Source: Crocinitomicaceae bacterium (lineage in GTDB: Bacteria; Bacteroidota; Bacteroidia; Flavobacteriales_D; Crocinitomicaceae). From it: a stretch of DNA of 45,751 nucleotides. The notes under the pieces were generated by a model. The model did no database searches. It was not told the origin of the DNA and saw nothing but the letters and a program-made list of their open reading frames with translations. Shown one piece after another: positions 5,890 to 42,292 of the stretch (its first letter is position 1; the number at the start of each line of letters is the position of its first letter). The stretch lies in NCBI GenBank assembly GCA_029251865.1, contig JAQXCN010000083.1, positions 1-45,751 of the forward strand. Reading direction: 5' to 3'. Made by a program: the position numbers and the translations under genes.

Positions 5890-7615
5890 TCTAGCTTTAT
5901 TTATACTGTTATTTGTTTGCGGCTGTAAGAGTCCGAGGGTCATTGTTGATGCGCAACAAACACAAAAATCAAAGGCATTCATTACAGCGTACCATGAAGG
6001 GTTAAGGCTTAAGTTTAAGGGTAATTATTTAAAAGCGATTGAACGCTTTGAGTTTTGCATTAAAGAGGAACCTTTAGACGATGCTTCTCATTTTGCGATG
6101 GCGCAAACCTATCTATTGTTAGGAGATTTGGTACAGGCAGAAAAACATACGATTTCGGCTGTAGATTTAGATAAGGACAATGTGTTTTATCAGATTGAAC
6201 TTGCCTATATGTTTCGAAGTAAAGGGGCTTTTAATTCAGCTGGAAAACTTTTCGAATCTGTTATTGATCGCAGGCAAAGAGGGGTTGAGTATTATTTATT
6301 GGCAATCGATTCATATCGTAAGTCTGAAAATTATACGGCCGCTTTAAAAGTGCTAGAGAAACTCGAAAACTTCAAAGGAAATGTTTTAGAGTGCGCATTG
6401 AGAAGGCATTCGATTTATGTCGAAATGGGAAAGCTAAAGGAAGCAGAAAAAGAACTACTTAGACTGCGAGAGGAATTCCCAAAAACACCAATGCTTTTAG
6501 CCACGCTTGTAGATTTTTATTTTCAACAGGATGCGCAGCCAAAAGCAATAGAGCATTTGAAGCTGTTAATAGACGTTGATCCACAGAATGGAATAGGAAA
6601 TTTAATGCTTGGAGAGTATGCTTATCAGCAGGGAGAAGAAAAAATAGCCGCTCAATATTTTTTTCAGGCGATAAAAACAGAGAATATTTCAGCTGAGGAA
6701 AGTGTCAATGCATTTGAGTTTTTAATTTATGTAAATGACCTACCTAAACTCAAACAAAGTATCTCTGTAATGGAACGCATGTACATTGAAAATGACACAG
6801 TAATAAGTGCGCTTGGAGATTACTATTTTCAGCGTTCTGTAAGCTCAGATGTTTCGGCTGAGAACAAAGATTCATTTCTCGTTAAGGCGATTGATAAGTA
6901 CACTAGGGCATTAGAATTGAATCCTAGTCGCTTTGACTTGTGGCAAAAAACACTCTATTATTATTACGACTCAAAGCAATGGCAAACGCTAAAAAAAACA
7001 GCGGAACAAACAGTTCGAACATTCCCACTTAGACCCGAGCCATTTTACTTAGGTGCCGTTGCTTATAATCAACAAGAAGACTATATTTCTGCAGAAAGTT
7101 TTGCGCGGCAAGGCCTTCTTTCCGTCATTGATGATCGTATTTTGGAGTCTGATCTATTAGGCCAGCTTGGCGAAGCATTTTTTGGCAGAGGAAATCTAGA
7201 ACAAGGCATGGTATATTATTTGCAAGCCATAGCGTTAGAGGAAAAAGCTACTGTAGGTTATCTCAGCTTTAACTTGAGCTTGAGATTGTTTGAGAATAAA
7301 CATGCGCTTTCTCAAGCCATTGAGATTTTGGACAAGGTGCTTGAAGGCCAAAACCCGCGTGAATTGACTTATGAACTATTAAAAGCAGACCTATTCTTTT
7401 TACAAAAAAAATATTATGAAACGCTTAATTTACTGGACGTTATGAAGAGTAATGACACCTTGTTCATTGCGGGCATTTTGGAACGAAAGGGCAATGTTTT
7501 CTCAATGCTTAAAGACAAGGATAAAGCAATTTCTTTTTGGAAAAGCGCCCTTGAAATTGGCGGGAGTTCACCGTTATTACTAGAAAAAATAAAAAAGGGA
7601 GAGTATGTTGAATAA
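5879..7615 (+). CDS. TPR-repeat lipoprotein
   Basis: A 578-residue protein made almost wholly of tetratricopeptide repeats (helical hairpins with the family Ala/Gly/Leu spacing, about residues 35-570). The N-terminus is a lipoprotein signal, with the acylated Cys most likely Cys16 in FVCGC, so it should be anchored in a membrane facing the periplasm. TPR arrays hold protein partners; no enzyme domain is seen. It overlaps the nucleotidyltransferase gene by 11 bases and the DUF4292 gene by 11 bases, so the three are probably made together. The specific partner is unknown, but the neighbouring DUF4292 lipoprotein and the EnvC-like protein are the best candidates by position. Confidence 0.85.
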   Translation: MRYNLALFILLFVCGCKSPRVIVDAQQTQKSKAFITAYHEGLRLKFKGNYLKAIERFEFCIKEEPLDDASHFAMAQTYLLLGDLVQAEKHTISAVDLDKDNVFYQIELAYMFRSKGAFNSAGKLFESVIDRRQRGVEYYLLAIDSYRKSENYTAALKVLEKLENFKGNVLECALRRHSIYVEMGKLKEAEKELLRLREEFPKTPMLLATLVDFYFQQDAQPKAIEHLKLLIDVDPQNGIGNLMLGEYAYQQGEEKIAAQYFFQAIKTENISAEESVNAFEFLIYVNDLPKLKQSISVMERMYIENDTVISALGDYYFQRSVSSDVSAENKDSFLVKAIDKYTRALELNPSRFDLWQKTLYYYYDSKQWQTLKKTAEQTVRTFPLRPEPFYLGAVAYNQQEDYISAESFARQGLLSVIDDRILESDLLGQLGEAFFGRGNLEQGMVYYLQAIALEEKATVGYLSFNLSLRLFENKHALSQAIEILDKVLEGQNPRELTYELLKADLFFLQKKYYETLNLLDVMKSNDTLFIAGILERKGNVFSMLKDKDKAISFWKSALEIGGSSPLLLEKIKKGEYVE

Positions 7616-8399
7616 AAGTATTTTAGCTCTTGTCGTTCTTGTTTTAACGGTCAGTTGTGCTAAGCAATGGAGTGATACGGATTCGATGACGGCAAAGCTT
7701 CCAAAGCTTAAACAAAAAGAGTTTCTGGCAAAACTTGATAGCATAGCTGAAATCGCACCCAAATACATGTATACAAAGCTAAAGGTTAGCTTCAAAGACG
7801 AAGAAAGAAAAATCTCCTTTAAGACGACACTAAAAGCTGTGAATGATTCCGCTATTACCGCTATTGTTTCATTTGCGCGCATTCCCGTTTTTAGTGCGCT
7901 AGTAGATAGGTCCAACCTAACTGTGGTAAATAAGAAAGATAAATGTTACACGATCCAAAAGCTTGAGGATTTAACATCTGAGCTAGGAGTAAGTTTTCAG
8001 CGTTCGGCAGTTGAAGAACTAATTTATGGACACGCACTTGGCTTTTCTGCCGACAAGAAGTATTATATGAAGAATGATCCTTTTAGTTACACCTTATCCT
8101 CTCATCGCAAATCGTATGCAAGAAAAAAAAATGAAATAGTATATACTTACCAGCTTCACGAAAACAAGAAGCATCTTTCTTCTATAAAGATTAGTGTACC
8201 GATGGACTCGACTGATATTGAGATCAATTACTTATCTTGGCAAGAGTCACAAAACTATACATTACCTAAAAAAGTTGACATTAGTGTTAAAAACCCTAAG
8301 CTTTCAGTTCAAATATCACTAGAGTATACAAGGCTTGATGTTGTGACACCTGAAGCACTTTTTTTAACAATACCAGAGAAATATGAAAAGTGTAATTAA
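7605..8399 (+). CDS. DUF4292 family lipoprotein
   Basis: A 264-residue lipoprotein with signal LVLTVSC and acylated Cys18. The remainder is alternating hydrophobic/polar beta-strand-like sequence, matching the Bacteroidota family DUF4292 as I recall it. The overall design (lipoprotein, single beta-rich domain of about 240 residues) resembles LolB/LolA-type lipoprotein carriers; that is an inference, not an identification. An AAGGGAGAG purine stretch just before the ATG could act as a ribosome binding site. It overlaps the TPR gene by 11 bases and the envC-like gene by 17 bases, placing it firmly inside the envelope operon. Confidence 0.8.
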   Translation: MLNKSILALVVLVLTVSCAKQWSDTDSMTAKLPKLKQKEFLAKLDSIAEIAPKYMYTKLKVSFKDEERKISFKTTLKAVNDSAITAIVSFARIPVFSALVDRSNLTVVNKKDKCYTIQKLEDLTSELGVSFQRSAVEELIYGHALGFSADKKYYMKNDPFSYTLSSHRKSYARKKNEIVYTYQLHENKKHLSSIKISVPMDSTDIEINYLSWQESQNYTLPKKVDISVKNPKLSVQISLEYTRLDVVTPEALFLTIPEKYEKCN

Positions 8400-32475: not shown

Positions 32476-33009
32476 ATGAATAAAAAATTAAAACTTTGGG
32501 AACTAGACAGGAAATCTCCTGAGAACTTTAGGGCACAGCAGAAGTTTCCTATAGTGGTCATTCTCGATGATATTCGTTCGCTCAACAATGTTGGGTCATT
32601 CTTTAGAACGGCAGATGCTTTTAACGTGACTAAAATTATTTTAGGGGGAATTACGGCTTGTCCTCCCCATAAAGACATTAGAAAAACAGCTTTGGGTGCT
32701 ACAGAAACTGTAGATTGGTCGCATTCCGAAAATCTACTTGAGGAAATCAAGGTTCTACAGAATGCAGGATACACTGTAGGTTCAATTGAACAAACAGAAA
32801 AAACCACCCTACTTCAGGATGTTGCGGCATTTGAAGCAAAACCTTATGCTTTAATTTTTGGAAATGAGGTAAATGGGGTGCGTCAAGAGCTCGTCGATGC
32901 TTCTGATTGTGTCATTGAAATCCCACAGTTTGGAACCAAGCATAGTTTTAATGTTAGTGTTTGTGCGGGAATCGTACTTTGGGAATTTTGTAAAAAGTTT
33001 ATCGACTGA
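32476..33009 (+). CDS. TrmH/SpoU-family RNA 2'-O-methyltransferase
   Basis: A 177-residue SPOUT methyltransferase with a trefoil-knot fold. The three family motifs are present: LDDIRSLNNVGSFFRTADA (motif 1, with the Asn-Asn-x-Gly-x-x-x-Arg pattern), ALIFGNEVNGV (motif 2), and IPQFGTKHSFNVSVCAGIVLWE (motif 3). It is at the minimal size for the family, lacking the N-terminal RNA-binding extension of RlmB. Target is a tRNA or rRNA nucleotide that cannot be named from sequence. Its last base is shared with the ATG of the following T9SS cargo gene (TGATG), an unexpected coupling of housekeeping and secreted functions. Confidence 0.9.
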   Translation: MNKKLKLWELDRKSPENFRAQQKFPIVVILDDIRSLNNVGSFFRTADAFNVTKIILGGITACPPHKDIRKTALGATETVDWSHSENLLEEIKVLQNAGYTVGSIEQTEKTTLLQDVAAFEAKPYALIFGNEVNGVRQELVDASDCVIEIPQFGTKHSFNVSVCAGIVLWEFCKKFID

Positions 33010-34394
33010 TGCGGATTTTTCTTCTTCTTTTTATTCAAACTCATGTCTTGGTTGCACAGAACGCCAATATTACACTTTTGGATAACTGGCAGGACAGCAG
33101 TCTGATCAGTAATACAAGCGGCGTGCGCTACAGTGGGTGCTTTACTTTTCTTCATAATGATTTTGAGTATGCGGTACTAGGCACGACCGAAGGCGCCTCT
33201 TTTTTTCAATTAACGAACCATGATGAGTTGCATTTTATCGATGAGGTCCTAGGGTCATATGTTTCTTCTCAGGCAATAACTAGAGAATACAACCGGTACC
33301 AAAATTACATATATGCCATTGGTGATGAGGGTAATGCGAGCCTACAAATTATAGATGTTTCGTATTTGCCTGACTCAGTTCAATTGGTGAATCAAATTCA
33401 AGATGAGCGTGTTGGAAAAGCTCATACACTGCGCATAGACACATCAGAGGCGCTTTTGTATTTGTGTTCTGTGACACCAATTGTAAACAGCCAAGAACAG
33501 GGCCTAATTCCATTACGCGTTTTTTCTCTTGAAAACCCTACAGACCCAGTTCTTATATGGGAAGGGTTTGATGATCTGCCCGAGGTCCACGATATGGAAT
33601 TAAGAGACGAAATTGCCATATTAAATTGTGGATTTGATGGCCTCCGTGTTTATGATTTTTCAAATCCTACGGCACCAATTTATTTGTCAAATCTTGAGTT
33701 TTATGCCGATCAAGGCTACAACCATCAAGGCAGTTTAAGTCCAGATAAAGAAACCTATGTTTTCGCCGACGAAACACCAGGAACACACTTAAAAAAGTGT
33801 GCAGTTTCAGAGGGTTATGAGCTTCAAATACAACATACTTTTGGGGTGACAGACGCGCCTTATTTAAAGACGCCACACAATATTTATATTACCAACAACC
33901 TTGCCTATGTGGCTTATTATAACGACGGATTGAGGATTTATGATTTGCGCAACAATCCCCCTTCAGAAATTGCAGCGTATGACACCCATACAGATCTTTT
34001 AGGAAACACTTTTTCAATGTGGGGTGCATGGGGAATAAGTGCCAATTTACCGAGTAAGAGAATTCTTGTGTCCGATCGAATTTCTGGCCTTTTTCTTTTT
34101 GAATTTAATCAAGATTTATTTGAAATGAATGCACCGATTGAAGCATTATTGGTCTTTCCGAACCCTGTGAGCTCGGATGGATTTGTGACTGTGCGTCTCC
34201 CTAGTAGCGTGACCCCGCCTTTTGAGCTTAAGGTCTTCTCCACAACAGGGTCTATTGTATATGAAGCACTCATCGAAAACGAGTCTTATTTGAGCTTTCG
34301 GCCTTGTTTTGTGTCGGGTCACTACACCTTAGAAATACAACACCCAAATTCTTTTAGCGGTATGATTTATAGAAAAAAACTTGTTGTAAATTAA
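33009..34394 (+). CDS. Choice-of-anchor B family secreted protein with T9SS type A domain
   Basis: A 461-residue exported protein with signal peptide (about 1-16, ending LVAQ). The main body (about 20-375) has the beta-propeller-like LVIVD repeats of the choice-of-anchor B family: QIIDVSYLPDS, LRVYDFSNPT and LRIYDLRN each mark one blade, with the HTLRID, HDMEL, NHQGSLS and HNIYI histidine-containing strands typical of the family. The C-terminal about 80 residues from LLVFPNPVSSDG to KKLVVN form a T9SS type A sorting domain. Its function is unknown; it is expected at the cell surface or in the medium. It overlaps the methyltransferase gene by one base. Confidence 0.88.
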   Translation: MRIFLLLFIQTHVLVAQNANITLLDNWQDSSLISNTSGVRYSGCFTFLHNDFEYAVLGTTEGASFFQLTNHDELHFIDEVLGSYVSSQAITREYNRYQNYIYAIGDEGNASLQIIDVSYLPDSVQLVNQIQDERVGKAHTLRIDTSEALLYLCSVTPIVNSQEQGLIPLRVFSLENPTDPVLIWEGFDDLPEVHDMELRDEIAILNCGFDGLRVYDFSNPTAPIYLSNLEFYADQGYNHQGSLSPDKETYVFADETPGTHLKKCAVSEGYELQIQHTFGVTDAPYLKTPHNIYITNNLAYVAYYNDGLRIYDLRNNPPSEIAAYDTHTDLLGNTFSMWGAWGISANLPSKRILVSDRISGLFLFEFNQDLFEMNAPIEALLVFPNPVSSDGFVTVRLPSSVTPPFELKVFSTTGSIVYEALIENESYLSFRPCFVSGHYTLEIQHPNSFSGMIYRKKLVVN

Positions 34395-34485: not shown

Positions 34486-36447
34486 ATGCAAGAACACAAG
34501 AAGTACGACTATATTTTCGCTGGTTTCGGAGCCAGTGCTTGCATTCTAGTTCATGAATTGTCTAGAAAAGGCTTGTTAGACAATAAAAAAATACTCGCAA
34601 TAGACCCTTCATTGAAAACAGTGAATGATAAAACCTATTGTTTTTGGTCTCGGCAAGAGGATGCAATCACAAAAGACTTTGCTCCATTAGCTTCGCATTC
34701 TTGGACTAAAATTGGAATTGATCAGGAAACACCACAAGAAATAGCCCCATTAACCTACTATCATATAAACAGCTTAGATTTATATAGTTCTGCAAAAAAC
34801 ATTTTAGCGCTTCATGAAGGCTTGTTTTTGAATACTGCGGTCAAAGGTTTTATCACTGCTGAATCAACAGTAATTGAGACTGAAGGGGGTTCTTTTGAGG
34901 GAGAGGTTATTTATGATGGACGGCCTCCAAGCCAAGAAGACAGCAACCCATCGTATCAAAATATTTTACAATCGTTCATTGGATATAAGATTAAACTAAA
35001 TGGAAAGAAATTAGATCCTACGGCTTGCACATTAATGGATTTCAATGTGGATCAGCAGGAACAAACACAGTTCATATATGTCTTGCCTTTTTCTGACGAT
35101 ACCGCTTTAGTAGAGTTGACAAGGTTTGGATCAGACCCAATATCAGAAATTGCGTCTAAGCAAATTCTAGACAACTACATAAAAACGCATTTCGGGGAAT
35201 ATGAGCGCATAGACAAAGAGCTTGGCGTCATTCCAATGTATATGGACCTAAAACCTCCTAAGCCCTTTAAAAATGTGGTGCCGATAGGAACAAGAGCAAA
35301 TAAAGTCAAGCCAAGTACAGGTTATGCTTTTAAAAACATGTATGCACATGCAAAAGAAATAGCTAATAATGCGAAAGGAGTAAATTCACCGTCAAGGTTT
35401 CGCCTTTATGACCGTTTACTTATATTAATTTTATCAATCTGGCCAGAAAAAGGGCGTCCCATATTTCAAAGGCTTTTTGCGGTTAAGCAGACCAATTATG
35501 TATTAAGGTTTTTAGATGAAAAAACAACCTTATGGGAGGATGCTTCTATGTTTTATAGGCTTCCTGTAGGTGTTTTTCTACGGGCATCAGTTGTGCTTCT
35601 TTATAAAAAAAGCAAACCTATTTTACGATTATTTGCTCCCGCGTTGTTATTTTTCGTCCTGAACGCTTTTGCTCCGAGTGTAGCGAATTATGTTCTGTAT
35701 GTCTTATTATTGTTAGGCTTAATCGCAGTTGGTATTCCGCATGGTGCTATGGATCACATGACAGAAGCATTGTCGAAATCAAAACAGATCACAACCTCGT
35801 TCGTTTTAAAATATTTAGGATTAATGGCAATGGTTTATTTAATTTGGGTTCTGTCACCATCAATTGCTGTGCTAAGTTTTATTCTTTATTCGGCTTGGCA
35901 TTTTGGTGAAACAGACACCGAAGAATGGGGGATTTATTCTCCCTTAACAGGGTTTTCATGGGGCATTTTATTTTTTGTAGGTCTTTTCTCTTCTCACATT
36001 GGAGAACTTAATAATGTTTTAGCCTTATTAAATGCAAAGACCTTAAGTGTTAATTTCAACTATGAAACTTTATTTATAGTTGCGCTTGTTATTGCAGGAC
36101 TTTTATCCTTACTGCATAAAAGTAAGCAATGGATGCTTCTTTTAGCCTTTCTGATCCTGAGTCAATGGATGCCTTTGGTTATCTCTTTTGGGATTTATTT
36201 CATTTTCCACCACTCCTTCAAAGGTTGGAAGCATTTGAAAAAAGCATTGGGTAAAAGTGACCTTTCTTTATTTAAGAACGCATTACCTTTTAATATTGGT
36301 GCTTTTGTATTGTTTCTTTTTTTCTTCCTGAATCCAGAAGCCACATTTGAGGCAAATACATCCTTTTTCTTTGTTTTCATTTCATGTATAAGCTTCCCCC
36401 ATATATTTTGTATGCACCGGTTTTATGCCTTAAGAAAAAAGAATTAA
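34486..36447 (+). CDS. Lycopene beta-cyclase / Brp-Blh beta-carotene 15,15'-dioxygenase fusion
   Basis: A single 653-residue frame joining two enzymes of retinal synthesis. Residues 1 to about 372 are a CrtY-type lycopene cyclase: FAD-binding DYIFAGFGASA (8-18), YCFWSRQED (51-59), LMDFNVDQ (183-190), FIYVLPFSDDTALVELT (196-212), and KPSTGYAFKNM (275-285). Residues about 378-653 are a membrane-embedded Brp/Blh dioxygenase with all its iron-binding His motifs: GIPHGAMDH (416-424), WHFGETD (471-477), FHHSFKGWKH (574-583), and FPHIFCMH (637-644). No internal stop, frameshift or start context separates them; the cyclase end (FRFLDEKTTL-type motif, then LPVGVFLRA) passes straight into the first Blh helix. 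Together they would turn lycopene into beta-carotene and cleave that to retinal. It stands alone, 91 bases after the preceding gene, with no rhodopsin or other crt gene nearby. Confidence 0.93.
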   Translation: MQEHKKYDYIFAGFGASACILVHELSRKGLLDNKKILAIDPSLKTVNDKTYCFWSRQEDAITKDFAPLASHSWTKIGIDQETPQEIAPLTYYHINSLDLYSSAKNILALHEGLFLNTAVKGFITAESTVIETEGGSFEGEVIYDGRPPSQEDSNPSYQNILQSFIGYKIKLNGKKLDPTACTLMDFNVDQQEQTQFIYVLPFSDDTALVELTRFGSDPISEIASKQILDNYIKTHFGEYERIDKELGVIPMYMDLKPPKPFKNVVPIGTRANKVKPSTGYAFKNMYAHAKEIANNAKGVNSPSRFRLYDRLLILILSIWPEKGRPIFQRLFAVKQTNYVLRFLDEKTTLWEDASMFYRLPVGVFLRASVVLLYKKSKPILRLFAPALLFFVLNAFAPSVANYVLYVLLLLGLIAVGIPHGAMDHMTEALSKSKQITTSFVLKYLGLMAMVYLIWVLSPSIAVLSFILYSAWHFGETDTEEWGIYSPLTGFSWGILFFVGLFSSHIGELNNVLALLNAKTLSVNFNYETLFIVALVIAGLLSLLHKSKQWMLLLAFLILSQWMPLVISFGIYFIFHHSFKGWKHLKKALGKSDLSLFKNALPFNIGAFVLFLFFFLNPEATFEANTSFFFVFISCISFPHIFCMHRFYALRKKN

Positions 36448-36450
36448 AAA

Positions 36451-38154
36451 TTAAATCGGTCGTACAAGTAATCGCTCCCCTTCTTTCGAGACTTTCAATA
36501 GGCTTTTCTTTGACAAGCCTTTAATTGCTGTATCCCATGCCTTATTGCTAAATTCAAATTGCGATTTAAGTTCTGGCAATGAGATTTCTTCTAGTTTTTT
36601 AAGTGCTTCATGAATTAACTTTTCATTGTCGGTTAAATCGAGTTTCACTTCCTTTTTTTCAGGGCGCATTTGAGGGAAAAACAGGACCTCTTGAATAGAT
36701 GAATTGTTGGTTAAGAACATACATAACCTGTCAATTCCTATCCCCATCCCTGAGGTGGGGGGCATTCCGTATTCAAGCGACTTTATGAAGTCTTGGTCAA
36801 TAAACATAGCCTCATCATCTCCTTTTTCAGCAAGCCTAACTTGTTCTTCGAATCGTTCTCTTTGATCGATAGGGTCATTGAGTTCAGTGTAGGCGTTCGC
36901 AAGCTCCTTTCCATTGACCATAAGTTCAAAACGTTCTGTTAGCTCTGGGTTATCTCGGTGTTTTTTACACAAAGGAGACATTTCGACAGGGTAGTCGGTT
37001 ATGAAAGTAGGTTGGATGTATAAATGTTCACATTTTTCACCGAACATTTCGTCGATTAATTTTCCTTTACCCATACTTTCATCCGTTGGAACACCAATTT
37101 TCTTACAGGTTTCACGGAGTTCGTCTTCATTCATTTTTGAGATGTCAATGCCAGTATGTTCCTTAATAGAATCAATCATCGAGATTCTTTTAAAAGGTCT
37201 TTTAAAGCTCACCTTATTTTCTCCAATTTGTACATCAGTGGTGCCTAGAACATCATTACAGATGTTTTCAAGCATCTCTTCCGTGAAGTCCATCATCCAT
37301 TTATAATCTTTGTATGCAACGTAGATTTCCATTTGCGTAAACTCAGGATTGTGTGTTCGGTCCATTCCTTCATTTCTAAAATCTTTTGCGAATTCATAGA
37401 CGCCGTCAAAACCACCTACAATTAGTCTTTTTAAGTAAAGTTCATTAGCGATTCTGAGGTATAATGGAATATCTAGTGCGTTGTGGTGTGTAACAAAAGG
37501 TCTTGCAGCAGCGCCTCCAGGGATAGATTGTAAAATTGGGGTTTCGACTTCTAGGTATTCTTTGCTGTTCAAAAATGAACGCATGGAGGAGATTATTTTT
37601 GAACGTTTTACAAAAGTTTCTTTTACGTGTGGATTCACAACAAGGTCGACATATCGCTGTCTGTATCTTGTTTCGGGATCGGTTAAAGCGTCATAAACTT
37701 TTCCATCTGCATCTGTTTTTGGAAGCGGTAGTGGCCGAATGGATTTACTTAAAAGCGTAAGCTCTTTTATACTTATCGATATTTCTCCAACCTGCGTTTT
37801 AAACATCGTCCCTTTAATACCTATAAAGTCACCAAGGTCAAGAAGTTTTTTGAAAACATCATTGTAAAGCGATTTGTCTTCTTCAGGACAAATTTCGTCT
37901 CTGTTGACATAGATTTGAATACGCCCTTCTGAATCTTGAAGTTCTGCAAAAGATGCTTTACCCATGATTCTTCGGCTCATCATCCTACCTGCAAGACAAA
38001 CTTCTTTACCCTCCTCATAGTTTTTGAGGAGCTCACTGGAAAGTGAATTTACAGGATATAATGGCGCTGGGAAGGGCTCAATATTAAGTGACCTAAGCTT
38101 ATTTAGAGATTCTCTTCTCTGAATTTCTTGTTCTGACAGTTCTTGGTGGCTCAT
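36451..38154 (-). CDS. lysS: Lysine--tRNA ligase (class II)
   Basis: From the ATG at 38154 the protein has 567 residues. A longer frame starts at TTG 38178, but that TTG ends a TATCTTTG promoter box. The N-terminal OB-fold anticodon-binding domain spans about 50-160 (AGRMMSRRIMGKASFAELQD); the catalytic core carries motif 2 FRNEGMDRTHNPEFTQME and motif 3 GMGIGIDRLCMFL. A C-terminal extension of about 70 residues after RPEK (EVKLDLTDNEK to RPI), seen in many Bacteroidota LysRS, explains the length above the usual 500. It charges tRNA-Lys. Convergent with the crtY-blh gene, with 3 bases between stops. Confidence 0.96.
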   Translation of the reverse strand: MSHQELSEQEIQRRESLNKLRSLNIEPFPAPLYPVNSLSSELLKNYEEGKEVCLAGRMMSRRIMGKASFAELQDSEGRIQIYVNRDEICPEEDKSLYNDVFKKLLDLGDFIGIKGTMFKTQVGEISISIKELTLLSKSIRPLPLPKTDADGKVYDALTDPETRYRQRYVDLVVNPHVKETFVKRSKIISSMRSFLNSKEYLEVETPILQSIPGGAAARPFVTHHNALDIPLYLRIANELYLKRLIVGGFDGVYEFAKDFRNEGMDRTHNPEFTQMEIYVAYKDYKWMMDFTEEMLENICNDVLGTTDVQIGENKVSFKRPFKRISMIDSIKEHTGIDISKMNEDELRETCKKIGVPTDESMGKGKLIDEMFGEKCEHLYIQPTFITDYPVEMSPLCKKHRDNPELTERFELMVNGKELANAYTELNDPIDQRERFEEQVRLAEKGDDEAMFIDQDFIKSLEYGMPPTSGMGIGIDRLCMFLTNNSSIQEVLFFPQMRPEKKEVKLDLTDNEKLIHEALKKLEEISLPELKSQFEFSNKAWDTAIKGLSKKSLLKVSKEGERLLVRPI

Positions 38155-38175
38155 ACAATGATTCGTTATAAAGTG

Positions 38176-38183
38176 CAAAGATA
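38176..38183 (-). promoter_or_regulatory. Candidate -7 promoter box (TATCTTTG) for lysS
   Basis: An exact TAnnTTTG match on the minus strand ending 21 bases before the lysS ATG at 38154. The identical octamer lies upstream of the next gene, rluF, at 38961-38968. Confidence 0.55.
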
Positions 38184-39049: not shown

Positions 39050-40621
39050 CTACTTTTTGAAAAACTTGCTGGTTTTGGTACCTGCTGCATTACTTAATAC
39101 TAGCGTGTACATTCCATCTTTTAAATCTGATACTGATATACTTTGGTTCGAAGTTGTTCCATTAGAAACAACTTGTCCTAAAGTATTCACTATAGAGAAA
39201 TCAAATGCTTCATCACCATTAAACTTGATAGAATTTATCGCAGGGTTAGGATAAACTTCAATAGGGGTATTCGTCATTTCATTAACGCCTAAGTTTGGAG
39301 GAAGAAGCACTCTATCAATGATGTGCACAATTCCATTATCTGAAAAGACATCTGGTGTTGTTACCATTGCATCATTAATCATAACACCATTCGTTAAATC
39401 GACAATAATATCACTACCATTAAGTGTAGGAACAGGGCCATTCACTAGATCTCCTGATTCAACAAATCCACCCACCACATGATACAACAATACATCTGCA
39501 AGATTTGGCAATGCTAAAATTCCCGCAAGGTCCGTATCAAGCGCTGCTGCAAGAGCATCGAAGGCATCATTGGTTGGCGCAAAAACAGTGAACTCGTTGT
39601 ATGGATCAGTTAAGGCTGGTAATAATTCTGCAGTAATAACTGCCGTCGTCAAGGTAGAAAAGCCATTATCAATAGCAACGTCAACTACAGTTTCAAATGG
39701 TATAAGAACACCATCTAAAACATGAACTAAGCCATTGTCACATGAAATATCAGTTGCAGTGACTTGAGCTTGGTTTACAAACGCTTCGCCTGAACCTTTA
39801 ACGGTTACCTTAAGCGTATTCGTTTGGCTTACTGGAGCTACAATTGCTCCATTCGACAACTCAGCTGCTAGTACTGGTGCACCAAGAACATGATAAGCAA
39901 GAACGTCTGCTAAAAATTCTGGAGGTGTAATTGCTGGGGTAAGTAAGTCAGCTACGGATACACCTACCCACGCTGCTAACGCTTCAAAGGCCTCGTCTGT
40001 TGGTGCAAATACAGTGTAAGAAGCTAAAGGGTTTGTTAAAACAGGCATGAGCTCTGCATAGATTACAGATGCTGCTAAAGAGTTAAATCCATTATCGATG
40101 GCTACATCAACAACTGTTTCAAACGGTAATAATACACCATCTGTTGCATGCACAACTCCATTATCTGCGTTTAAATCCGCAGCAACAACCATTGCTTGAT
40201 TAGCGTATACACTACCTGCTGCAGTTTTGGTTAGTTTCAATGTGTTGGTCGTTGATACTGCATCAACAATAGCACCATTGGTAACCGCTGCGGCTGGAAC
40301 AGTCGCACCAACGACGTGGTACGTTAAAACGTCGGTAAGATTTGGTAAAGCTAATATACCATTGATATCTGTACCCAGTGCTGCGGCTAAAGCGTCGAAA
40401 GAGGCATCAGTTGGAGCAAAAACTGTAAATTCTGCAGATCCATCAGATAAGACGGCATCTAAACCTTCTTGGACCAGCGCTGCTTCTAGATAGTTGTGAT
40501 CAGGACTTCCCGCAATTACGTCGAAGACCGTAGTTTGAGCAAAAGAAGATGAGGCTACAAACAAAGCGGCCGCACCAAAAATGTGCTTTAATTGTTTAAT
40601 AAAAGTAAAGTTAGTTTTCAT
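39050..40621 (-). CDS. Triple fasciclin (FAS1) domain protein with T9SS type A sorting domain
   Basis: I start at the ATG at 40621 (523 residues); the longer frame opens with TTG at 40654 and would put eleven residues before an otherwise normal signal peptide (1-29, ending SFAQ). Three FAS1 domains follow at about 30-166, 169-310 and 312-445, each with the FTVFAPT motif, a central YHVVG/YHVLG, and a closing NGVVHATDGVL-type motif. The last about 75 residues from IEVYPNPAINSI to KFFKK are a T9SS type A domain. FAS1 proteins mediate cell adhesion; this one is likely surface-exposed. It has its own terminator and a leader hairpin at 40653-40676, suggesting a single-gene transcript. Confidence 0.93.
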   Translation of the reverse strand: MKTNFTFIKQLKHIFGAAALFVASSSFAQTTVFDVIAGSPDHNYLEAALVQEGLDAVLSDGSAEFTVFAPTDASFDALAAALGTDINGILALPNLTDVLTYHVVGATVPAAAVTNGAIVDAVSTTNTLKLTKTAAGSVYANQAMVVAADLNADNGVVHATDGVLLPFETVVDVAIDNGFNSLAASVIYAELMPVLTNPLASYTVFAPTDEAFEALAAWVGVSVADLLTPAITPPEFLADVLAYHVLGAPVLAAELSNGAIVAPVSQTNTLKVTVKGSGEAFVNQAQVTATDISCDNGLVHVLDGVLIPFETVVDVAIDNGFSTLTTAVITAELLPALTDPYNEFTVFAPTNDAFDALAAALDTDLAGILALPNLADVLLYHVVGGFVESGDLVNGPVPTLNGSDIIVDLTNGVMINDAMVTTPDVFSDNGIVHIIDRVLLPPNLGVNEMTNTPIEVYPNPAINSIKFNGDEAFDFSIVNTLGQVVSNGTTSNQSISVSDLKDGMYTLVLSNAAGTKTSKFFKK

Positions 40622-40652
40622 TTTGTTTAATTTTTGATTCAAAACATTCAAC

Positions 40653-40676
40653 AAAGAACAGTAGGTTTTGTTCTTT
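40653..40676. other. Perfect 8-bp inverted repeat beside a T9/A9 tract upstream of the fasciclin gene
   Basis: AAAGAACA (40653-40660) and TGTTCTTT (40669-40676) are perfectly complementary with an 8-base spacer, and a run of nine T (plus strand) follows to 40682. In the minus-strand transcript this would be an A-rich tract followed by a hairpin about 30 bases before the start codon, a possible mRNA-stability or translation-control element. It also resembles a weak plus-strand terminator, but no plus-strand gene ends here. Confidence 0.45.
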
Positions 40677-40756: not shown

Positions 40757-42292
40757 TTAATCAATCCATGTGTATTTTCTGTGCCCATCAAGCACATTAA
40801 TGCCACCAACAGATTCTAAGATAAATTCTCTTGATGGTGTTTTTATGGATTTTGTTTGATAGCCTCTATGAAGTGCCTCGTAGGTATTGGCATCAATTGC
40901 GTATCGATCTTTTAGTCGCGAAAAGAGATGAAACTCTTTGGCAATATTTTCCCAGCCTTCTTGAAGTATACCCTGAAACACCTTAGATTTCGCGCCACTT
41001 CCGTAGGCACAGAAACCAATCTTTTTGTTGGCTAAGTCCGTGTGATCATTAAGGTCAATTTCTAATGTTGACATTAAGGCTAAAAATATTGAACCTGTAT
41101 ATTGATTACCGACTAAAGCCGAAGCCCTTTGTGTTTTTTCGATTTTTTCATCTGTGAATTTCTGATACTGTGCAGTTTTTGAAATGAGCCTTCTATATCC
41201 ATTTTTTCTTTTTTCCTGTTCCTCTGTACTAAGACTTTCCATAAGATTTTCATCTTGCGAAGGATCTTTTCCTATTTCTTCAGTAATAGTTATGCCTTCT
41301 TTAGAATTGAGCCTATCCATCATAAAGATGTCTGGAAACATTCTTTTTCCTTGAAAGGCATAAGGAAGATGAACGACTATTCTTTGCCATTGTTCAGTAA
41401 TAATTTCGCGCTCAACTGAGGTCGAGGTTGTCGCTTTTTCTGCTTTTGATTTAAAATCGATGAAGGCTTCCTTTACTGCCTCTGTATAACACCGATTTGA
41501 AAGTTGACCATCAAAAACAGGTGTATCCTTATGGATTGTTAATGCTTTTTCCTGAAATAATAAATGATCTTTTTTGGAAGAGCCAGGAATGAGGTCTGCG
41601 ATTTTAGAAGCCAAATCATCAGGAATTATCGCGCCAGTTTCTTTTGCAAGCCCCAAAACTTCTTGAACCATATCATGTAATTCTATTTTTCTTTTTGGTT
41701 TAAAGAAGTCATGAATAGGGTTTGTTGCAATTCCCCATAAATCGTCAATAATCATGAGCCTTGGGTTCTGCTTAATCAAAATCGCACCCGCGCCTGCACC
41801 CTGCGTATATTCACCAGGCGAGTTTAAGTCATATTTGGCATCATCTGAAAAAACAACAATTCCCTGTCTGTTCTCACTAACATCTCGCGCTACCCAGTCC
41901 AAAGTATTATGCATGGCATCAACACCACCAATACAGGCAAAAGTGAGATCTGTAACATCACAATGGCTAAAGCTCCCCGCGCCATATTTTTGCTCGAGCA
42001 TTTCAAGTATGTATGTAGCTGTCGGTTTCGCGCCATCGAGCGCAGATTCAGTTCCCAGATAAATACGTCCGATATCTTTCGGTTTGAGTTGATTTCTTTC
42101 AAGCAATCTTAGGCAGGCATTTGCCCCCATGGTTGCTGGGTCTTCATGAACATCAGGAATGGACATGGATTCCAACCCGAGTCCTTTGTTTAATTTGCCG
42201 TATTCTAAATTTCGAAAATCAGCAAAGTCGGCAATTTTAAAATGTAGCTTGGGAAAATAAACTGCGATGTCATCTATTCCTACTCCTTTCAT
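40757..42292 (-). CDS. Hydroxymethylglutaryl-CoA synthase
   Basis: A 511-residue thiolase-fold enzyme that condenses acetoacetyl-CoA with acetyl-CoA to HMG-CoA, the committed entry to the mevalonate pathway. The catalytic triad is present: Glu82 in LGTESALDG, Cys120 in LTFACIGGVDA, and the His in VVHLPYAFQGKRM (about residue 308). It is longer than typical bacterial MvaS (about 390-460), with extra sequence around residues 190-300 and 330-370. The polyketide-type HMG synthase homologues are an alternative, but no ACP or polyketide genes are near. Mevalonate-derived isoprenoids would feed the carotenoid route that ends in the crtY-blh fusion 4.3 kb away. The promoter region is 269 bases, shared with the divergent AsmA-like gene. 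Confidence 0.9.
   Translation of the reverse strand: MKGVGIDDIAVYFPKLHFKIADFADFRNLEYGKLNKGLGLESMSIPDVHEDPATMGANACLRLLERNQLKPKDIGRIYLGTESALDGAKPTATYILEMLEQKYGAGSFSHCDVTDLTFACIGGVDAMHNTLDWVARDVSENRQGIVVFSDDAKYDLNSPGEYTQGAGAGAILIKQNPRLMIIDDLWGIATNPIHDFFKPKRKIELHDMVQEVLGLAKETGAIIPDDLASKIADLIPGSSKKDHLLFQEKALTIHKDTPVFDGQLSNRCYTEAVKEAFIDFKSKAEKATTSTSVEREIITEQWQRIVVHLPYAFQGKRMFPDIFMMDRLNSKEGITITEEIGKDPSQDENLMESLSTEEQEKRKNGYRRLISKTAQYQKFTDEKIEKTQRASALVGNQYTGSIFLALMSTLEIDLNDHTDLANKKIGFCAYGSGAKSKVFQGILQEGWENIAKEFHLFSRLKDRYAIDANTYEALHRGYQTKSIKTPSREFILESVGGINVLDGHRKYTWID

Follow-up and report, generated by a model that had tools for sequence, protein, structure and literature searches.

A CrtY-type lycopene cyclase and a Blh dioxygenase joined in one reading frame: a predicted lycopene-to-retinal enzyme of Crocinitomicaceae and relatives

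The fused gene and its two halves

The window, that is, the whole stretch of 45,751 nucleotides analysed here, corresponds to contig C38 in an assembly of 2.38 Mb from a Crocinitomicaceae bacterium (86 contigs, estimated to be 100% complete). One gene in it joins a CrtY-type lycopene cyclase to a Brp/Blh-type dioxygenase (Table 1). An earlier note, written from the DNA letters alone, had reported one uninterrupted frame of 653 codons at this place, and our reading of the frame confirmed it, with no internal stop. Farther downstream, the window holds a gene whose product looks secreted and has three similar repeats, judged fasciclin-like by eye (39050-40654), and an HMG-CoA-synthase-like gene (40757-42292), both named from sequence only.

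Table 1. Features of the crtY-blh locus, with positions in the window.
Feature	Position	Strand	Basis and remarks
Upstream neighbour, 461 aa, secreted-looking	33009..34394	+	By eye; no carotenoid link seen
crtY-blh fusion gene	34486..36447	+	ATG, 653 codons plus stop, without internal stop (ORF read)
CrtY-type lycopene cyclase part	34507..35574	+	Pfam PF05834, residues 8-363
Joint, residues 361-395	35566..35670	+	Predicted unbroken helix from CrtY tail into first Blh helix (AlphaFold2)
Blh part with conserved histidines	35716..36417	+	PF15461, TIGR03753
Downstream convergent neighbour, putative lysyl-tRNA synthetase	36451..38178	-	Named from sequence

Both halves of the protein match their Pfam families above the cut-offs. 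The match to PF05834 (E 1.6e-42; 146 bits against a gathering cut-off of 23.4) covers model positions 1-374 of 380 and is thus near full length, and residues 411-644 match PF15461 (E 6.5e-29; 101.8 against 28 bits). Pfam finds no other domain in the chain, and the fusion is the sole match to either family in the window's genome. The protein also passes the NCBIfam Brp/Blh model TIGR03753 (120.4 against 95.25 bits). The cyclase half does not reach the NCBIfam cut-offs of TIGR01790 (95.9 against 209.5 bits) or TIGR01789 (50.5 against 215.2 bits), and because it falls below these lycopene cyclase cut-offs we call it CrtY-type and not a certified CrtY equivalog. Compared with separate genes, both halves are whole, in agreement with the earlier note, which had described each of the two enzymes in the chain as complete. 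By the same comparison, made by eye, the CrtY part ends near residue 374 and the Blh part starts directly after it, which makes the proposed boundaries of 372 and 378 fair.

Residues expected of both families are conserved among the fusions. In a structure alignment of 59 fused proteins (the window's and those of 58 of 80 loci from a second collection, described below), G13 and G15 of the N-terminal nucleotide-binding glycine motif of the FAD-enzyme fold are invariant. So are H419, H472, H504, H576 and H639 of the Blh half, which we take to be histidines of the iron-binding type. An AlphaFold2 model of the whole protein (mean pLDDT 89.3, pTM 0.77) predicts a helix bundle over residues 361-652. 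No solved structure is related to the fusion protein by sequence at E 0.01. By fold, the closest solved structures are geranylgeranyl reductases (TM about 0.5 by target, rmsd 8-10) and other FAD enzymes, all matched to the cyclase half. How the two halves are placed relative to each other in the model is only moderately certain.

The joint combines a variable sequence with a nearly fixed length. Among 90 fused proteins (exact duplicates removed; near-identical proteins may remain), residues 373-405 are the least conserved stretch, with a mean identity to the window's protein of 20%, against 42% for CrtY residues 1-350 and 40% for Blh residues 406-650. M355 and P418 lie 59-68 residues apart in the same proteins, mostly 64 (n=41) or 67 (n=34). 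Residues 361-395 are modelled from the 59 sequences as one helix, with a block pLDDT of 84-94. We consider it very improbable that post-translational cleavage splits the chain into two proteins that act as two enzymes: the poor conservation of the joint sequence would suit such cutting, but no conserved motif was seen in the joint among the fused proteins compared, and the predicted helix runs through it without a break. In pairwise comparisons of the window with four relatives of 61-72% identity (L031, L032, L033 and L034), in which silent sites are near saturation, pN/pS was 0.25-0.35 in the CrtY part, 0.28-0.50 in the joint and 0.21-0.28 in the Blh part. As estimated from these ratios, replacement changes are held back across the whole frame, joint included.

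Distribution of the fusion and its genomic company

The fusion is not an oddity of one genome and recurs in many uncultured relatives. Some match to the fusion protein occurs in 188 of 399 sampled genomes of the window's order, and 97 of the 399 carry the fusion itself. Of these 97, 89 have a match that spans both halves (query start at 42 or less, end at 610 or more), and in the other 8 the match extends over the joint but is truncated, either where the contig ends or, in G359, where the frame breaks within the cyclase half near residue 295-302. Partial matches that end before the joint (such as G132, G370, G319 and G123) were left out of the count. Stops were flagged inside three of the 89 spanning matches (one each in G187 and G067, two in G328). 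We rejected these three as split genes, since on reading both halves share one frame; that of G328 opens only at about residue 50.

A second collection, which overlaps the order sample in genomes, holds 80 loci from records that are all titled MAG. One frame covers both halves in 65 of them and 3 more cross the joint. The remaining 12 comprise 4 stand-alone crtY genes, which adjoin crtZ, crtB and crtI, 7 loci cut by contig ends and one locus broken in several places (L091). An assembly chimera or a missed stop codon might be suspected from the 86 contigs of the window's assembly, but both halves are spanned in 89 genomes and share a single frame in 65 of the 80 loci of this overlapping collection. 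We therefore reject the fusion as an artefact and give such an error next to no chance.

In the phylum sample, crtY and blh are usually separate, which the earlier note had stated for marine flavobacteria. PF15461, the dioxygenase (BCD) family, was found in 59 of 395 sampled genomes; its frame is of fusion length in only 5 of these 59, has 457 residues or less in 53 and has 958 residues in one (G627). The last was considered as a second kind of BCD fusion and dropped, as Pfam shows only BCD in it. The 5 fusion-length frames belong to two genomes of the window's order (G000 and G008) and to three of one family in another class (G714, G616 and G600); these three were confirmed by comparison, and G714 and G600 by Pfam as well. 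One contig titled Myxococcales bacterium (L096) carries a fusion with 60% identity to the window's, inside the window's branch of the tree. It is likely misbinned, and among the loci collected here it is the sole hint of the fusion outside the Bacteroidota. Viral or plasmid spread was also considered and rejected: the protein had no match in phages, 44 pattern matches in viral contigs yielded no confirmed relative, and none of 111 matching plasmid records covered more than 80% of the query, with the 20 listed of those 111 all on the cyclase half only.

Rhodopsin genes accompany the fusion. They were found in 87 of 97 fusion genomes against 95 of 302 others in the order sample and, in the window's genus, in 47 of 50 genomes with the fusion against 7 of 27 without it (77 genomes among those listed); shared descent is ignored in both comparisons. 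Of the 95 genomes with rhodopsin and no fusion, 67 have another match to the query. Where the place of the rhodopsin gene was listed (77 fusion genomes), it lay within 1 kb of the fusion in 39 (both genes on one strand in all but 2 convergent cases, with the rhodopsin gene upstream in 28 and downstream in 9), at a distance of 179 kb on the fusion's own contig in one (G260) and on another contig in 37, the window's genome included. That genome has one rhodopsin, of 243 residues, on contig C11. Its helix-C residues are D, T and E, its colour-tuning residue is M, and the Schiff-base lysine is present. We take D-T-E to be the mark of a proton pump and M that of a green-absorbing form. All 57 rhodopsin frames on loci with a fused frame have D-T-E-M, overlapping loci of one genome being counted repeatedly. 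The expectation that blh lies beside a proteorhodopsin gene holds for separate-gene relatives (L253-L257) and fails in the window's genome, where the rhodopsin gene is on a different contig.

No rhodopsin was found in 10 of the 97 fusion genomes (G069, G078, G090, G117, G145, G237, G256, G323, G328 and G392). Three of these, G145, G256 and G323 (loci L211, L212 and L210), belong to the window's genus and are 93-99% complete; either their rhodopsin was missed or their retinal serves something else. At another locus (L073, 553-5422), two rhodopsin genes flank an intact-looking fusion, after which come pieces of another cyclase half; the arrangement looks like a decayed tandem copy of a rhodopsin-fusion unit.

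The window's genome also has the genes for a carotenoid pathway outside the fusion. On contig C9, crtI, crtB and an idi-like gene (named by eye) lie in a row. CrtI passes NF058655, a phytoene desaturase/3,4-desaturase model, and CrtB is backed by Pfam PF00494 only, the NCBI phytoene synthase models being below their cut-off. A run on contig C45 holds CruF-like, CrtZ-like and CrtYcd genes. The last is a second, unrelated lycopene cyclase (PF18916 and TIGR03462 over cut-off). The CruF-like gene passes PF04240, with NCBI's CruF models below theirs, and the CrtZ-like gene, without a match in either library, was named by eye. Directly ahead of this run is a sugar-epimerase-like gene (HpnA-like, below cut-off; contig C45 of G000, 7159-8163 of locus L167). 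A match to TIGR03462 was found in 82 of the 97 fusion genomes. Among the 15 genomes without one, 8 show another match to the query, which was listed on the cyclase half for seven and is given by match count only for G135. No second cyclase was found in the remaining 7 of the 97, among them G158 (95% complete) and G286 (90%). Enrichment of CrtYcd with the fusion was considered and rejected, since 315 of the 399 genomes match CrtYcd anyway.

Trees and the origin of the fusion

In 22 fetched loci from 21 genomes, separate crtY and blh genes follow each other on one strand, crtY first, with overlapping open frames (start codons not fixed), so a small change could fuse them; because loci were picked around matches, the 22 are not a rate.

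Near-duplicates were removed by greedy clustering before the trees were built, and the cyclase tree was built without L147 and the fragments L073, L091 and L148. In a quick cyclase tree of 90 rows, all 61 fusions fall on one branch with support 99. A careful tree of 49 cyclase halves (32 of the 61 fused and 17 of the 29 separate rows, chosen by us, the longest separate branches being left out) also has its 32 fusions on one side of a branch (support 100/99, present in all 200 bootstrap trees counted). The neighbours of the fusions in that tree, again with 100/99, are crtY genes of overlapping pairs (L179, L180, L181 and L260). We conclude from these trees that the fusion most likely arose once, by the joining of crtY and blh of an overlapping pair, and was then kept.

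The Blh halves do not form one group in their own tree (100 rows, including 39 of 52 separate representatives), and two changes are needed there. One genus (g52, family f9) has blh genes that stand alone (L149-L159), with no cyclase seen on the fetched stretches of these loci. The six of them included in the tree (L149, L153, L154, L156, L158 and L159) fall inside the fusions beside L214. Loss of the cyclase half in this genus is possible and would be the simplest reading of the Blh-half tree. The blh gene of L149 lies between two genes for very long, secreted-looking proteins. Fusions from the family in another class (genomes G714 and G600; loci L249 and L251 of family f34, from two genomes of one genus) lie in different parts of the fusion group in the careful cyclase tree, which hints at transfer between lineages.

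Proposed function and comparison with known systems

Most likely, the fusion is a dedicated lycopene-to-retinal enzyme. We put a probability of roughly 85% on the fuller statement that the gene encodes a bifunctional, membrane-associated enzyme that takes lycopene to retinal, serves a dedicated branch and has one origin in a crtY-blh pair. The N-terminal, FAD-fold CrtY half would cyclise the red pigment lycopene at both ends and so form beta-carotene, the C-terminal Blh helix bundle would cut beta-carotene at its central double bond, and the retinal released would go to the cell's proteorhodopsin. Retinal is the light-catching part of proteorhodopsin, and rhodopsin-based light harvesters need it. 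This explanation is weakened by the scores of the cyclase half below NCBI cut-offs, by the fusion genomes without rhodopsin (10 of 97) or without a second cyclase (7 of 97), by the 95 genomes that have rhodopsin and no fusion, and by the Blh-half tree, which splits the fusions.

The products depend on what the cyclase half makes. If it were a monocyclase, it would yield gamma-carotene, from which Blh would cut one retinal and one open-chain aldehyde. A precedent is CrtYm, a CrtY relative from Flavobacterium P99-3, which is termed a lycopene monocyclase in the literature. However, CrtY of Nonlabens spongiae, with 47% identity to CrtYm and 26% to Pantoea CrtY, is reported to make mainly beta-carotene from lycopene when expressed alone in E. 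coli (PMC11855829). We thus regard a monocyclase as unlikely and keep to the closure of both rings.

The earlier note had supposed that the fusion would steer all beta-carotene toward retinal. This left out of account the second cyclase, CrtYcd, which lies beside the CruF-like and CrtZ-like genes. Because the cell has this second lycopene cyclase, the branch point is probably lycopene and not beta-carotene, and the retinal branch would leave the common pathway there. CrtYcd, the CruF-like hydratase and the CrtZ-like hydroxylase would form a pigment branch, whose products are most likely monocyclic carotenoids of the saproxanthin, flexixanthin or myxol type. In Algoriphagus, crtYcd, cruF and crtZ are among the genes predicted to make flexixanthin, a monocyclic pigment (PMC10784355), and Algoriphagus CrtYcd was termed a monocyclase by Klassen (PMC2889829).

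A bolder form of the explanation is that the fusion is an insulated channel, in which both rings are closed and the product is cleaved before CruF or CrtZ gains access. When Nonlabens CrtY was combined with CruF in E. coli, the main product was 1'-hydroxy-gamma-carotene (PMC11855829); a free half-cyclised carotenoid can therefore be diverted in cells with CruF. Rigid coupling of CrtY to Blh might shield this intermediate. With such a channel, it would make sense that retinal synthesis has retained a cyclase of its own beside the pigment cyclase, and that the joint is a predicted helix whose length hardly varies. The earlier note had suggested, for its part, that beta-carotene may be handed directly from the cyclase to the dioxygenase. 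We offer the insulated channel tentatively, as an idea with perhaps a minority chance of being right.

Alternatively, there may be no channelling or shielding at all: the fusion could be a by-product of an overlapping pair that lost a stop, with halves that work independently and a gain, if any, in equal amounts or simpler regulation. This alternative is a serious one, with a chance not far short of even, and it opposes only the bolder form of our explanation and not the explanation itself. The overlapping crtY and blh frames of 22 loci in 21 genomes fit it, as do separate-gene relatives with rhodopsin on the same locus (e.g., L187, L258 and L260) and the low sequence conservation of the joint. 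Against it are the occurrence of the fusion in 97 of the order's 399 sampled genomes, and also in a family from a different class, the narrow spacing across the joint, and the prediction of a helix there in place of a loose linker.

If the lycopene-to-retinal reading is right, this group is predicted to be a natural one-gene enzyme for that conversion. To our knowledge, little is understood of how a cell divides its lycopene between retinal and pigments. With the fusion group, channelling within a membrane pathway can be put to a direct test, for which natural controls exist in the still separate sister genes and in genomes that have the fusion together with a second cyclase. Engineered production of retinal or vitamin A may benefit as well.

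No bacterial CrtY-Blh fusion was found among the titles and abstracts listed in searches of an open-access library, which agrees with the earlier note, whose author knew of no described example. Because NCBI cut-offs name only the dioxygenase half, the fusion may have been overlooked. The nearest described protein is a CrtI-CrtB-CrtYc/d-Blh chain of Thecamonas. In it, a lycopene cyclase likewise precedes a C-terminal Blh in one chain, and direct cleavage to retinal is also proposed by its authors. It differs in being from a eukaryote, in having an unrelated cyclase of the CrtYc/d type and in carrying CrtI and CrtB in the same chain. In the window's genome, CrtI, CrtB and CrtYcd all lie outside the fusion, which is thus not a Thecamonas-type protein.

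Several bacterial systems share features with the fusion. The crtIB fusion of Verrucomicrobiota likewise unites neighbours from the retinal pathway and is associated with proteorhodopsin, but it joins phytoene desaturase and synthase, not cyclase and dioxygenase (PMC10284914). Nonlabens spongiae CrtY is flavobacterial as well and takes lycopene to beta-carotene in E. coli; unlike the cyclase half of the fusion, it is a stand-alone enzyme of a pigment cluster (PMC11855829). The side-by-side genes of Bacteroidota (e.g., L260 and L179-L181) have complete PF05834 and PF15461 domains in the same order, crtY and then blh, and some of these loci also include a gene for rhodopsin (L187, L258 and L260). 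They differ from the fusion in being two genes with overlapping open frames, whereas the fusion is one frame.
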